Below, piece after piece: positions 43,402 through 51,890 of a stretch of DNA of 64,000 nt. This stretch comes from Marinoscillum sp. MHG1-6 (GTDB lineage: Bacteria; Bacteroidota; Bacteroidia; Cytophagales; Cyclobacteriaceae): positions 310,001 through 374,000 of the forward strand of contig NZ_JAMZMI010000004.1 of NCBI RefSeq assembly GCF_024714475.1. The letters are read 5' to 3'. A model generated the notes under the pieces. It was not told the DNA's origin. It was given only the letters and a program-made list of their open reading frames with translations, and searched no databases. How positions within the stretch are numbered: position 1 is the first letter of the stretch; each line of letters begins with the position of its first letter. The position numbers and the translations under genes are program-made.

Positions 43402-44559
43402 CTATTTAACGATCTTTCTGGGAATTGCAGCGGGCAACCGACTCAGCATCTCATTATTGAGTAGCTGTGTAACCTGAGTGAATGAGCTAATATTGATCGT
43501 GTTGTTCTTCTGTCTTCCGACCAAAACAACCTCATCTCCTACTTCTACCTCATCAATATGAGAGATATCCACCATAAACAGGTTCATGTTTATCAATCCT
43601 ACAATGGGAGCTTTCTTGCCCTTAATTAAGACAAATCCTCTGTTGGATTGTGCACGTGGATAACCGTTTGAGTACCCAAGCGGCATTACAGCCACTCTCA
43701 TATCTTGAGTAGCCTGATAAGCGGTACCATACCCAATGAACTCACCGGCATCCACATTGCGAATATCCATGACATCGGTCTTCCATGTAAATATGCGCTT
43801 CAATGCACCATCAGAACGACTACCCGTCTCCTGAAGGTGGGTATAATAGATATCCGGACTTGGCCAAAAACCATATTGAGCAACCCCAATTCGCACCATA
43901 TCATATACGGTATCCTTATAGGCAAGAGCAGCGGCAGAACAGGCGATGTGCCTAATCTCAGGCTGCACCTTTTTCTGTTTGCATTGCTTTAAAAACTCTT
44001 TGTATCGGTTATGCTGCGATTCAATTTTAAATAGGTTGGCGAAACTTTCCGCTCCTCCAAAATGAGTACAGAGTCCAATAAATTTCACTGAACCTGAGTT
44101 CTTTTTAAGAAAGGATAATGTTTTGCTGAACTCTTTAGCCGGTAACCCTGTACGATTTGCACCGGTTTCCACTTCTATATGTACTTTGGCCTGTTTTTCA
44201 AGCCTTTTTGCTTTTTCAAGCACTAAGGGTAAACGATCATAATTGAACACATAAAATTCAATTCCATGTTCAATGGCCCATTCAATATCCTCATCATACA
44301 GAATACCCATTATCATGACGTCAGAATCCGGTGACTTCACTTGAAGCACTTCTTCCGCCTCAAATGCAGATGCAGTAGCAAAATGATCCACTCCCGCCTT
44401 CTCAGCCATTTTAACAAATTGGTCAATGCCATGCCCATAGGCGTTAGCCTTTACGACCGAGGATATCCTGACCCCCTGCCCAACCTTTTTTCGAATAAAA
44501 TTGATGTTTTTTGACAGGGAGGATTGACTTAGTTCAATTCTGGAGGAGTGCCTTACCAT
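43402..44559 (-). CDS. alr: Alanine racemase
   Basis: A 385-residue PLP-dependent alanine racemase that makes D-alanine for the cell wall. The PLP lysine is in VVKANAYGHGIDQF near residue 38; the second catalytic base is the Tyr in GYGTAYQATQ; further marks are LCTHFGGAE, VRIGVAQYGFWPS, MPLGYSNGYPRA and INMNLFMVDI. The ATG at 44559 is chosen, giving a 7-base overlap with the end of the upstream gene (ATGGTAA). It is the last gene of an operon with a 662-residue papain-like protein and an ATP-grasp ligase. It may be the only alr gene, so the link with those genes is suggestive only. Confidence 0.93.
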   Translation of the reverse strand: MVRHSSRIELSQSSLSKNINFIRKKVGQGVRISSVVKANAYGHGIDQFVKMAEKAGVDHFATASAFEAEEVLQVKSPDSDVMIMGILYDEDIEWAIEHGIEFYVFNYDRLPLVLEKAKRLEKQAKVHIEVETGANRTGLPAKEFSKTLSFLKKNSGSVKFIGLCTHFGGAESFANLFKIESQHNRYKEFLKQCKQKKVQPEIRHIACSAAALAYKDTVYDMVRIGVAQYGFWPSPDIYYTHLQETGSRSDGALKRIFTWKTDVMDIRNVDAGEFIGYGTAYQATQDMRVAVMPLGYSNGYPRAQSNRGFVLIKGKKAPIVGLINMNLFMVDISHIDEVEVGDEVVLVGRQKNNTINISSFTQVTQLLNNEMLSRLPAAIPRKIVK

Positions 44560-46541
44560 AATTTGGTTTGTTGGTTCCAAACATATGACTTACCCCACGA
44601 TGAGTGGGCCAGGTCTTCTACTTTTTTTAACAGTTCTAGGGGTACTATGTTTAGCCTGTCTTTTATTTCCAGGCAATTGTAATGAAAGGCATAAACTCTT
44701 GCTGCAAATTGGTGAAATGGAAGTGATGACTCACCGGGCTTTTCCCCACTACCATGAACAGAGGGCCTTATCTCCTGACCCCAGTCTTGTCTCCCTTCAT
44801 TGTTCGGATTTAAAAAATAAGCTCGCATAACTCCCTCATCATCTTTATTGACACGTAGCAATGAAACGGCATGAAAACCCACCATATCCCCTTTGTTACT
44901 CGTGATGAAGATGCCCACAGGATTTGGATATACCATCTCATGATGTCCATTATAATCGAGATGAAAAGCAGCGTAAAAGATTCTTAAGAATCCTTCAAAA
45001 TCCAGAATTGAGTTACTGAGATAGTCGTAACAAGAAGCAAATCCTATTTGAATCCACTGTCCATACATTGCTGGGTTGACCCATTTATGTGGATCATCTG
45101 CCCTTCCATAAGACCGTTTCATCATCTCGTTATAGATTTTATCCAGGTGAGGCACCAGCAGCACGGACACCACATCCAGATTATAATCCAGCTTATCTAC
45201 CAGACCTTTCCCAAGATGATTGGATACCAGGTCCTGGTTTTCAAACCGCATCATTAGGTTGTTCTGAGTAGCTACAGTAATGATCATGTCGATCAGCTTG
45301 GCAGGTGAATGCTGGCTCCACATGCTAATACCTCGTGCAGATTGGCAGGTTGGATTATTTCCTTGCCCAACCCCCAAGGGCTGCCCCAATACCTTAATGG
45401 TACCTCCAATCAAGTATTGTAAAATGGTTACCTCCGCATCCGGATTAATCAGAGATTTTTCAATCCGTTTTTCGACCTGACTGTTGATCTTTATTTTGCG
45501 AAGATTCTCCAGTCCTACGCGCACCGGACGCCTGGAAAAAAGATTAGCTCCCAACATCCGGGTCAGACCATAAATGCATTGACAATTATCTGTGCTTACC
45601 GTTTCCTGGATAATATTTGAAACAAGTTCGTTGAACTTCTCCCACTCAGCAATACCGCGGTCATTGAGATCAAGACAAAGTGGCACCAGGTCCTTATAGT
45701 CGTTTACGAGCCTTCTTAGAAGAATGGCATGATATCCGCTCACCAAACCCGTCTCATTCATCAGCTCGCCCATTGCATGAGCTTCCTCTGCCAAAGTACG
45801 TTGATCAGACTGATCAACGAATTTCTGATAGGAGGCATAATCAGGGCACTTGACACTTCCCTCTGAAGGTGCATAAATAGCATTAATAAAAGTCCGCATC
45901 TCACGATCCACCTCAGAATTTCCACTTGTATCAAAACGGTGATTTACCAGACTAATCAATTCCCGGGTCTTCCTGGTCAATATTGGGCGCTGAGCACATT
46001 TTAGCCTTATCTCTTCAACCAACTTTCCATAGACTCCACTGAGATCTATTTCCGTCATGATAAAACTGAAAAGGTTGAAGGCCTTCTTCATTTCCCGGTC
46101 TGACATAATAGACCTGGTCTCCTCAGAAGGTTCCCGCAAAGCAAATTCAAGATTATGGACCATCACTTCCTCTAAGAAATCCTGTGCCTCTTCCTGTGAT
46201 ATTTTGGAGCTTGTATTGACACCTGTGGCATATCCCAGTAATCTTAGCTCTGAGAGGATCTCAAAGCTGGAGGAAGGATGCCCTGCCTTTAGGGTTCCTT
46301 TAACAAAAAACGGGATCAATTTATCAGGCTCATCCCAGGCAGTGCCTTTAAAAATACCGGCTTCATCTAGCACAGCACTTTTACTGTAAAGATGAGAAAG
46401 TCCGTTTCTAGTCAAACTAAGCACATCAACCTGACTCGTGAGTTTAGTGGCTTTATCTTGCTTGGTAATTTCCGCAGAGTCGACAAAATCCCTCAGACTC
46501 TGATCAAAGTTATCAAATACCTTATCGGTTATTTCCTGCAT
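44553..46541 (-). CDS. Large orphan protein with papain-like Gln-Cys-His-Asn pattern
   Basis: A 662-residue protein I cannot place by name. An ATG at 46541 (MQEITDKVFDNFDQSL) is preferred to one 5 codons earlier. The first ~380 residues are helical without recognised motifs. Then comes PLGVGQGNNPTCQSARGISM: Gln393 stands six residues before Cys399, exactly the spacing of the oxyanion Gln and nucleophile in papain, followed by a helix. His557 is in MVGFHAVSLLRVN and Asn578 in AYFLNPNNEG, each followed by strands. This gives the Gln-Cys-His-Asn order of papain-fold peptidases and transglutaminase-like enzymes. No signal peptide, so cytosolic. It overlaps alr by 7 bases and follows the ATP-grasp gene by 75 bases. 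Enzyme class is inferred; peptidase, transpeptidase or amidase are all open. Confidence 0.8.
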   Translation of the reverse strand: MQEITDKVFDNFDQSLRDFVDSAEITKQDKATKLTSQVDVLSLTRNGLSHLYSKSAVLDEAGIFKGTAWDEPDKLIPFFVKGTLKAGHPSSSFEILSELRLLGYATGVNTSSKISQEEAQDFLEEVMVHNLEFALREPSEETRSIMSDREMKKAFNLFSFIMTEIDLSGVYGKLVEEIRLKCAQRPILTRKTRELISLVNHRFDTSGNSEVDREMRTFINAIYAPSEGSVKCPDYASYQKFVDQSDQRTLAEEAHAMGELMNETGLVSGYHAILLRRLVNDYKDLVPLCLDLNDRGIAEWEKFNELVSNIIQETVSTDNCQCIYGLTRMLGANLFSRRPVRVGLENLRKIKINSQVEKRIEKSLINPDAEVTILQYLIGGTIKVLGQPLGVGQGNNPTCQSARGISMWSQHSPAKLIDMIITVATQNNLMMRFENQDLVSNHLGKGLVDKLDYNLDVVSVLLVPHLDKIYNEMMKRSYGRADDPHKWVNPAMYGQWIQIGFASCYDYLSNSILDFEGFLRIFYAAFHLDYNGHHEMVYPNPVGIFITSNKGDMVGFHAVSLLRVNKDDEGVMRAYFLNPNNEGRQDWGQEIRPSVHGSGEKPGESSLPFHQFAARVYAFHYNCLEIKDRLNIVPLELLKKVEDLAHSSWGKSYVWNQQTKLW

Positions 46542-46575
46542 GAAGTAGGTTATCAATTATTGATTAAGCTAAAAT

Positions 46576-46599
46576 GGGGATTTCCGATCGGAAATCCCC
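46576..46599 (-). promoter_or_regulatory. Perfect 24-bp palindrome between the ATP-grasp and papain-like genes
   Basis: GGGGATTTCCGA followed at once by its reverse complement, with no loop. On the minus strand the sequence continues CATTTTAGC, so there is no proper T-tract for a terminator. It lies 17 bases after the ATP-grasp stop and 34 before the next ATG. As RNA it would form a stable hairpin, possibly controlling how much of the downstream genes is made; as DNA it could bind a dimeric regulator. Confidence 0.5.
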
Positions 46600-46616
46600 T
46601 CGAAACATGATTTCAA

Positions 46617-47840
46617 TTAGACATAGAAATCCACTGTTTGATAATGCTTCAGTAGCTCCGTCATGCGATCAGGATCTTCCCCTTTGAAATTGATGGTTCC
46701 AAAGTGATTTCCAAATCCGTCCCTATCCGCATCCAATTTTTGACCTTCCAATGGCGGTACCAGGGTATGCTCCACAAAATATGGCTCATTATTCAGTTCT
46801 TCCGGAATTTCCAGTTTGGAAAACCTTCGTTTGTGTGGATATATCATCACATTTCCATGATAATTTCTTGGTTTGAAACTGTCGTCAGGGAAAATAGCAT
46901 TGAGTTCTTCCTCAGTGGCATTTGGGTCATGGCTTACGACAAAAGCAGCCAGCGCGTCAAACTCGTATGATTTAGAGCACAATTCCAGAATATGTCCTCC
47001 CGGGATCCTACAAGCAGTTTCACCGAAATTCAATTCATCATTTTCCGTAAGAAACCACTCCGGGTGAACCATTCCGTATTCAATGCCGAATATATCAACC
47101 AACTTCTGAACATGCTTATGGATAAGATCCCTCTTGCTTTCCAGGTATCGACCTTCAGGAATGAAGTTCGAGAAACCGAGTTTGACATACTCAGTGATAT
47201 TCAAAAACCTGATCTTTCCCTTATGAATAAAAGCCTCACATGAAAATTCTCGTCCCGGAAGGTGGCTTTCTGCCAAGCATGGAAAATCTCCATCTTCACA
47301 TTTGTCATCTATATCGGACATAGATTTAAGTAGCCTATGCCCTACTGTTCCTGCGGAAGCAAATGGCTTAATGTGCACCCAGCTATCCTCTTCTCCTTCC
47401 AACTGGAGATTGGCCTGATTCAATCGCTTCATGAAAGCCTTTACACCCTCTTTATTGTAGACTTCCTCAAAAAGGCCAACACGAAGGCCTCCAATCAGAG
47501 CCTTTCTTTTCATCATGGCTTTATTTCTAAAAAGGAATGCACGATTTAAAACACGTGGATCTCCACGATATATCGAGTTTAAGGCCCCAGCCCACTCTAC
47601 AGTCTCCTCATAAAGGGGTACAGCAACATCCACATCAAATGGCTTTAGCTGTTCTAAAAGGTCCAATGAATTAGAGGTATCACTCCACTCATCAAGCTGA
47701 TATGGTACAAAAGGAATATCATTTTCATTAGCATAAGGCTCAAAGTCAGGTAATGAAACCACTACATATGGTTTTCCAAGCTTTTGCATACTTTCAATTA
47801 CGGGCAAACTCCACCCTATCAATGCGAAACATTTAGCCAT
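46617..47840 (-). CDS. ATP-grasp domain ligase
   Basis: A 407-residue protein of the ATP-grasp superfamily, forming a bond between a carboxylate and an amine or thiol at the cost of ATP. It starts MAKCFALIGWSLPVIESMQK with a Rossmann-like preATP-grasp part; the ATP-binding lysine region is DSWVHIKPFASAGTVGHRLL, the hinge is LAESHLPGREFSCEAFIHKG, and the magnesium-binding end is MVHPEWFLTENDELNFGETA followed by CRIPGGH. This resembles L-amino-acid or peptide ligases and carbamoyl-phosphate-synthetase-like proteins more than DdlB. It is the first gene of an operon with a papain-like protein and alanine racemase, so the product may be a peptide or amide. Substrates unknown. Confidence 0.85.
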   Translation of the reverse strand: MAKCFALIGWSLPVIESMQKLGKPYVVVSLPDFEPYANENDIPFVPYQLDEWSDTSNSLDLLEQLKPFDVDVAVPLYEETVEWAGALNSIYRGDPRVLNRAFLFRNKAMMKRKALIGGLRVGLFEEVYNKEGVKAFMKRLNQANLQLEGEEDSWVHIKPFASAGTVGHRLLKSMSDIDDKCEDGDFPCLAESHLPGREFSCEAFIHKGKIRFLNITEYVKLGFSNFIPEGRYLESKRDLIHKHVQKLVDIFGIEYGMVHPEWFLTENDELNFGETACRIPGGHILELCSKSYEFDALAAFVVSHDPNATEEELNAIFPDDSFKPRNYHGNVMIYPHKRRFSKLEIPEELNNEPYFVEHTLVPPLEGQKLDADRDGFGNHFGTINFKGEDPDRMTELLKHYQTVDFYV

Positions 47841-50216: not shown

Positions 50217-51890
50217 TTACTTAGGCCAATCAAAATCCTTTTCCATAGTCCAGCATTCCGGACATTCCTTTTTCCATCCGAAGGCAAAAAACTTGGTCGG
50301 TTGAATATTGCAGGTAAGTGGTAATCCTTCCTTCGGGAATAGTCTGAATTTAGTATTGGTTCGCTGAATGAAATCATCCATTGATGAGCCTAATGCAATG
50401 AATGTGGTGTTCGGGTTATTCTCGAACCAAACCGGTATGATGATCTTAGCCAGCATGCCACAAATAAGAATAACGATCCCTCCGTCAGGAAACTCCATCT
50501 CCTTTAGTTCATCATATTGGAGGTACGAATTTTTAAATGGAACAATTACCTGATTTTCCTTTTTGATGTTCACTCCCAGCTTCTCAAATATGGTCAAATC
50601 CTGATACTCATTTTTGATAAAGAAGCATTCCCTATCCTTCATGTAGTTGATGATATTCGGGAAGAAGCGTGGATTATGGTGCAATGACATTGCAGGTACA
50701 ATATTCTTCTGACCTTCGACAAGCGAATCTGCCAACTGTCTCAATTTAGGATGGCTTGTCCCGCAGGGCACCCCAACATAATGCCTTGGCTGATCCAGTT
50801 TTAAGGCTTCGGTAAGTCGCTGACCAAGCAGCTTATTGTATTTCTGCTGGCGTCTTCCAAACCATGTCTCTGCATGGTCTCCGGATAAATATTTTTTAAT
50901 AAAAGTAAGCTCTCCGTCATTGAAATGAGCAAAAGTGAAACCCTCCCTCTTCTGAAGATGCCCCAGGAAAAGCGCCATAACTCGTTTCCATTCAGGGTTG
51001 GCATTGGCTGCATACCTAAATATCCGATAAGGACTGGTCGTACCTCTATTGATCACCCAGGCAAACAGGAATAACCAAAATGATTTTACATAGGCCTCGA
51101 ATGATCCCAACCATACCCTCAGTGTTTTACTATTTTTCTTTCCTTTTAGATAATCTAAAACCGACGCCTGATGTTTACTATCACTGGGAACAATCCAAAT
51201 TGATGGGCTGGTCTTTAATTTCTTGATGGTCGGATTACCTCCCTTTACTGTGCGAACACCAAATGGCTTATTTCTTAGAAATTCATTTCCTTCAAATTGT
51301 TTGCTCTCAAATCGAACAAATAAGTCTCTTTGAATCCATGATAACATCGGCCATTTGTACGCACAAAGTTGGCCAGAGGCATCTCCTACGAGCTGTTGAG
51401 TTCTATCGATTTCAACATGGTAGTCAAAGGAAGTTGCCTTAAGCAAATAATCAACATAGAACCGGGTAAGGAGATCGTGCCAGGAGTACTCTTCCGGGTA
51501 TTCAGCTTTGATAAGCTTAAACATGGCTACTAAAGCTCCTGCCTTACCCGCGATGAATGAGGCATTCAGGTAATGATATGGCGTTTCCCCCCTGGGGTAG
51601 AACTTCCAGAAATAGTACCTCAGCGCCTCATCATCATAATGAAATGCCGAGGATGCCGCGAACGTGATGTCACTTTTATAGGCATCTTGATCAGGCCAGC
51701 TAACTTTAGACAACCACAATTGATCAGACATCACAATAGTAGCAGTCTCTTGTGCCGCTAACCCATCTAGAAAACTTATTGCATCATCAATATTCGGATC
51801 AGTTCCTAAAAATGACATTTTAATTGAGTCTATAGGACCTGAAACCTCCAATTGCTCATTAGAACCAAATATTCCGATATGATTCATCAT
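50217..51890 (-). CDS. Fusion of a PLOD-type glycosyltransferase domain and a GT-D (DUF1792) domain
   Basis: A 557-residue cytosolic protein with two parts. Residues ~20-210 resemble the glycosyltransferase domain of PLOD/procollagen galactosyltransferases: FLGTDPNIDDAISFLDGLAA, TIVMSDQLWLSKVSWP, PYHYLNASFIAGKAGALVAM and DYHVEIDRTQQLVGD. Residues ~310-545 resemble GT-D enzymes (DUF1792): TFAHFNDGELTFIKKYLSG, YVGVPCGTSHPKLRQLADSL, GGIVILICGMLAKIIIPVWF and FIALGSSMDDFI. A linker with a hydrophobic patch (SFWLFLFAWVINRG, ~270-283) lies between. If both are active it would add two sugars in turn to a glycan or protein. It starts by a 4-base overlap (ATGA) with the GT4 gene upstream, so both are translated together. 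Confidence 0.7.
   Translation of the reverse strand: MMNHIGIFGSNEQLEVSGPIDSIKMSFLGTDPNIDDAISFLDGLAAQETATIVMSDQLWLSKVSWPDQDAYKSDITFAASSAFHYDDEALRYYFWKFYPRGETPYHYLNASFIAGKAGALVAMFKLIKAEYPEEYSWHDLLTRFYVDYLLKATSFDYHVEIDRTQQLVGDASGQLCAYKWPMLSWIQRDLFVRFESKQFEGNEFLRNKPFGVRTVKGGNPTIKKLKTSPSIWIVPSDSKHQASVLDYLKGKKNSKTLRVWLGSFEAYVKSFWLFLFAWVINRGTTSPYRIFRYAANANPEWKRVMALFLGHLQKREGFTFAHFNDGELTFIKKYLSGDHAETWFGRRQQKYNKLLGQRLTEALKLDQPRHYVGVPCGTSHPKLRQLADSLVEGQKNIVPAMSLHHNPRFFPNIINYMKDRECFFIKNEYQDLTIFEKLGVNIKKENQVIVPFKNSYLQYDELKEMEFPDGGIVILICGMLAKIIIPVWFENNPNTTFIALGSSMDDFIQRTNTKFRLFPKEGLPLTCNIQPTKFFAFGWKKECPECWTMEKDFDWPK

Follow-up and report, generated by a model that had tools for sequence, protein, structure and literature searches.

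A rare gene pair of an ATP-grasp ligase and a papain-like orphan, associated with ornithine-synthesis genes in several bacterial lineages

What could be made by three adjacent genes of Marinoscillum sp. MHG1-6, which encode an ATP-grasp ligase, a long orphan protein and an alanine racemase homologue, and do the three belong together at all? The window, that is, the whole stretch of DNA analysed (64,000 nucleotides of contig NZ_JAMZMI010000004.1), contains them as follows.

46617..47840, minus strand: ATP-grasp ligase, 407 aa, with a predicted L-amino-acid ligase fold of the RizA/BacD kind
46576..46599, minus strand: perfect palindrome of 24 bases, GGGGATTTCCGATCGGAAATCCCC, inside the 75-base gap between ligase and orphan, resembling a terminator or attenuator hairpin
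44553..46541, minus strand: orphan, 662 aa, with a helical N-terminal part (about residues 1-365) and a putatively papain-like C-terminal part
43402..44559, minus strand: alr-type PLP racemase, 385 aa from the ATG or 392 aa from an upstream TTG

The genes are read in the order ligase, orphan, alr; 75 bases separate the ligase stop from the orphan start, and the ATG of alr overlaps the orphan stop by 7 bases. The preliminary description had presented them as a minus-strand operon with this gap, the palindrome and this overlap, and every one of these features was found as claimed. The unit is real, and its three genes form an operon. The arrangement is not due to chance, since 46 of the 48 Bacteroidota-side loci have alr after the orphan; as to the two exceptions, the contig ends at this point in L041, and the downstream sequence is present and alr is absent in L058, which is labelled Gemmatimonadota. 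We found no description of the unit in the open-licence literature searched. When the gap between ligase and orphan reaches at least about 50 bases in Bacteroidota, a hairpin is often present, frequently followed by T, and the hairpins of different lineages are unrelated in sequence. The hairpin suggests partial termination, which would yield more ligase than downstream enzyme.

When one genome per species was scanned for the orphan, 90 relatives were obtained and 80 of them kept; in the kept loci with sufficient upstream sequence the ligase lies directly before the orphan. Both genes occur in the identical genomes in each of three samples that overlap in part and all contain the window genome: 13 among 59 relatives (13/13), 4 among 296 genomes of the phylum (4/4) and 3 among 194 genomes of the order (3/3). 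The presence call for the ligase is clean, with more than 600 bits for true orthologues against less than 70 bits for the ATP-grasp proteins that come next. In genome G716 both genes are present and unlinked; the pairing is thus not mere hitch-hiking, as both were kept there though the operon is broken. The distance matrices of the ligase, orphan and alr proteins correlate with r of 0.85-0.89, part of which is explained by shared descent. Strict pairing of ligase and orphan, as expected at the outset, was therefore observed in all three samples; the two genes are not found apart in most relatives, and neither matches an unrelated known family.

Although found in several phyla, the unit is uncommon: it is present in about 1% of the sampled genomes of the phylum and absent from 46 of the 59 relatives. 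The ligase-orphan pair occurs without alr in 31 Bacillota loci and, on a large replicon, in Halomonas sp. PA16-9 (L135). Two observations concern the Bacillota loci. A GNAT acetyltransferase gene lies upstream of the ligase on the opposite strand in 25 of the 31 (e.g., L067:5866-6438); it may possibly provide an acetylation step or self-protection. As a universal partner it was rejected, with no homologue in the unit-bearing Bacteroidota relatives. Several Bacillota (L074, L075, L083, L084, L088, L089, L091 and others) also have a second, more diverged orphan copy of about 610 aa downstream of the first, which retains the Cys/His/Asn set.

The ligase itself is strikingly conserved across phyla, with about 50% identity between Bacteroidota and Bacillota. 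Its match to Pfam ATP-grasp_4 is weak and below the cut-off; its family profile compared with PDB sequences gives RizA as the best match (E 3.5e-11). The AlphaFold model (pLDDT 90.9) has the three-domain ATP-grasp fold of the RizA/BacD group, and Foldseek places RizA, BL00235 and BacD among its best matches with a probability of 1.00. In an alignment of 63 homologues E261, E274, R278, K107 and K158 are invariant; aligned to RizA, the first three correspond to the Mg/ATP acidic residues and the arginine of the C-terminal motif. The protein thus shares with RizA, BL00235 and BacD/YwfE the fold, the acidic and arginine positions of the C-terminal motif and the length, although the identity is just 14-20%; unlike them, it is partnered by a putative cysteine enzyme of unassigned family and often by an ornithine-supply operon. 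It resembles the ligases forming dipeptides from L-amino acids, and we predict a peptide- or amide-type ATP-grasp ligase. The initial idea that it joins amino acids or peptides is thereby supported by both the profile and the fold matches. A RiPP (graspetide) cluster was set aside on the class of the ligase, whose type is that acting on free amino acids.

The orphan presents more difficulties. Neither singly nor as a family does it have a convincing match in the libraries to which this statement applies, namely, Pfam, NCBIfam, PADLOC and PDB sequences. A Gln-Cys-His-Asn pattern of papain type had been noticed in it earlier, and it is indeed there: none of Q393, C399, H557 and N578 varies across 76 aligned homologues, and the Halomonas copy retains the three motifs. 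In the AlphaFold model (pLDDT 91.0) C399 opens a helix six residues past Q393 (Q-x5-C, the papain spacing), H557 is in a strand, and N578 is right behind the next strand, which is the papain order. The likeness to papain-like enzymes of the C1, staphopain (C47) and BtrH types thus includes the order of the four residues, the Gln-Cys spacing and, in the model, the secondary-structure context; the differences are the helical N-terminal part of about 365 residues, the pairing with an ATP-grasp ligase, and the lack of detected similarity to the Peptidase_C1 profile. Specifically, HH-suite (hhalign) gave no match between the C-terminal half and a Peptidase_C1 profile built from 11 proteins of relatives, so that a link by this route was rejected; there is no match to a papain family in Pfam; and Foldseek in two structure libraries returned nothing with E < 0.001. 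Papain-family proteins nevertheless feature among the top-ranked, weak matches of both searches (E 0.2-0.9, low probability); these are staphopains and Amb a 11 for the PDB and, for the other library, papain-like proteins from giant viruses. Since the profile comparison was negative and no Foldseek match was significant, we call the orphan papain-like by motif and topology and not as a proven family member; the assignment is otherwise weak.

The conserved Cys, His and Asn might instead belong to another fold with another function, which could be combined with any reading of the unit. The empty profile comparison and the lack of a significant structural match agree with this; however, the spacing and the placement of the residues in the model, and the recurrence of papain-family chains at the top of two independent libraries, speak against it, and we judge it distinctly unlikely. 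A defence system was also considered and rejected, the orphan having no PADLOC match and no phage copy.

The features of both proteins bear on the possibility of a protein-tagging cycle, in which the ligase would attach an amino acid to a protein for later removal by the cysteine enzyme, as tubulin tyrosine ligase and vasohibin do with tyrosine. The large helical N-terminal part of the orphan could bind a protein, and some of its weak Foldseek matches are helical-repeat scaffolds. But the ligase groups with the small-molecule amino-acid ligases and not with the RimK or TTL types, and the association with ornithine synthesis described below would be left unexplained; we consider such a cycle very improbable.

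Pairs of an ATP-grasp ligase and a cysteine-dependent acyl enzyme are found in BtrJ/BtrH of butirosin biosynthesis and in glutathionylspermidine synthetase/amidase. The unit may share this pairing by analogy, and the comparison with glutathionylspermidine is meant as an analogy only; in contrast to both systems, no carrier-protein or spermidine genes adjoin the unit.

The chief finding concerns the flanks of the unit, where argB, argD, argC and argJ were identified. In L020 and L083 the NCBIfam equivalogs TIGR00761 (ArgB), TIGR01850 (ArgC) and TIGR00120 (ArgJ) and the ArgD family TIGR00707 were all over the cut-off. The argB-D-C-J genes are in the gene run of the unit in Marinoscillum, a Rickettsiales-labelled MAG, Saprospirales (upstream), Phaeodactylibacter and the relatives G045, G007 and G282, and they are divergent beside the unit in L033 and L059. 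In Bacillota L083 has the order ligase-orphan-argC-argJ-argB-argD-second orphan, and L087 and L088 have part of this arrangement, with argJ or argC-J-B(-D) in the same gene run. No arg genes were seen near the unit in most Bacillota loci or in the Halomonas locus. Among the 59 relatives ArgJ is present in 13 genomes, 12 of the 13 with the unit and 1 of the 46 others (Fisher p = 1.5e-10, a value that overstates independence because the genomes are related); the exceptions are G013, with the unit and without ArgJ, and G018, with ArgJ and without the unit. This co-occurrence is informative only in Bacteroidota, since ArgJ is common outside them. The physical linkage is observed in several lineages and two phyla and is independent of the Fisher p. 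The tie to ornithine synthesis could not be seen in the initial reading of the sequence: in this genome the arg genes lie outside the window.

Several observations were made on the same clusters. The unit and argBDCJ are on separate contigs of the window genome. The run with argBDCJ (L202, G000:C22:208000-223713) also contains genes for a sodium-solute symporter, a GNAT and an M20 amidohydrolase, together with the third alr of the genome and a gene resembling an ornithine racemase, whose 323 bits fall short of the cut-off of 480; the run is possibly a D-ornithine locus. In Marinoscillum and a relative (L020:6947-7774, L022:11143-11961 and L201 of G007) alr is separated from argB by the gene of an orphan of about 275 aa, whose L020 copy has no match in Pfam or NCBIfam. 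TrkA/TrkH-like potassium uptake genes, recognised by eye, and a PhzF-like gene adjoin argBDCJ in three relatives (L204, L206 and L207), one of them without the unit.

The linked acetyl-cycle clusters that were seen whole lack argF, argG and argH; therefore, their product should be ornithine, and ornithine or N-acetylornithine is the likeliest substrate of the unit. As the unit is kept together in several phyla and is usually paired with ornithine-making genes, it probably builds an undescribed small molecule containing ornithine. We presume that the unit forms the dedicated last part of an undescribed pathway that joins ornithine or its derivative to a partner, and we give this a probability of roughly one half (about 0.52). 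ArgJ, ArgB, ArgC and ArgD would convert glutamate to ornithine or N-acetylornithine. The ligase would then activate a carboxylate as an acyl phosphate and join it to an amine, ornithine being one of the partners; both the activation and the formation of an amide are expected because the class of the ligase implies them. The orphan, a putative cysteine enzyme, may work as a transacylase or amidase on the amide or on an acyl intermediate. Acyl transfer, acyl hydrolysis and the release of ammonia for amidation are all conceivable for it. In the Bacteroidota-side lineages the racemase would set the configuration of one amino acid.

The same neighbours could mean that the unit assists arginine biosynthesis by storing, protecting or recycling ornithine or arginine, without a special end product, e.g., through a dipeptide that is split again by the cysteine enzyme. 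In Cyclobacterium (L043, 364-6214, and L044) a canonical Bacteroidota arginine operon with N-acetylornithine carbamoyltransferase lies next to the unit in divergent orientation, so that arginine instead of ornithine is possible, and a hydrolytic papain-like enzyme would fit recycling. Against this account are the composition of the linked clusters seen whole, argBDCJ without argF, argG or argH, and the absence of the unit from most relatives; we think it unlikely. As to a separate arginine pathway in the window genome, argG and argF' were not found within the 1.76 Mb sampled, where only an argD-proA-proB-like group was found.

For the pathway ending in an ornithine derivative, it is tempting to consider a neutral derivative accumulated as a compatible solute. 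Such a role is suggested by the dedicated-looking ornithine operon, by the TrkA/TrkH-like genes beside argBDCJ and by the hosts, many of which are marine, halotolerant or from soda lakes; this last impression may reflect sampling bias. In Salinicoccus a clustered amino-acid pathway is proposed to feed the osmolyte N-acetyl-lysine (PMC4685198). There, likewise, a full amino-acid pathway is clustered and proposed to supply a derivative; the putative osmolyte pathway considered here differs in having ornithine in place of lysine and a ligase with a cysteine enzyme. In the most specific version, marine, halotolerant and soda-lake bacteria belonging to several phyla would use the unit to produce a compatible solute or storage amide that derives from ornithine and is as yet undescribed, and the orphan would found a new family of papain-fold transacylases working with an ATP-grasp ligase; this is speculative, and we regard it as rather unlikely in this full form. 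A pathway of the proposed kind would extend bacterial chemistry by one metabolite and one enzyme family, both new and found in several phyla. Ornithine is a clear and testable substrate prediction, and a pair of ligase and cysteine enzyme without a carrier protein would also interest enzymologists.

It remains to place the racemase. Its assignment to the Alr family stands (TIGR00492, 290 bits with a cut-off of 168; the PLP lysine in VVKANAYGHG and the catalytic tyrosine in GYG are conserved), and it carries an insert relative to the aligned Bacillota Alr. The preliminary description proposed that the unit could make, modify or recycle a small D-Ala- or amide-containing peptide, and allowed that alr may be just a housekeeping neighbour. 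In the reading built on D-alanine, alr would be its defining supplier. In favour of D-alanine, every untruncated Bacteroidota locus has alr after the pair, often overlapping the orphan gene, and the alr of the unit is additional to a MurF-Alr fusion encoded in the same genome. However, the Bacillota, Halomonas and Gemmatimonadota-labelled loci have the pair without alr, and the enzyme could be specific for another amino acid. Since the window genome also encodes the MurF-Alr fusion and a third alr, that of the unit is not the sole cell-wall alr; the fusion serves cell-wall D-Ala. A D-Ala peptide at the core of the unit is therefore not upheld, and we find this reading quite improbable; the preliminary interpretation as a whole is supported in part. 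The racemase is a lineage-specific addition to the ligase-orphan pair, and the D-alanine idea is secondary. Reading the specificity of the Alr from the Tyr354 position was tried and dropped, as the Bacillota Alr in the alignment share that residue.

Elsewhere in the window (50217-51890, minus strand) a protein of 557 aa, unassigned in other respects, has a weak, sub-threshold match to GT-D glycosyltransferases in its C-terminal half.
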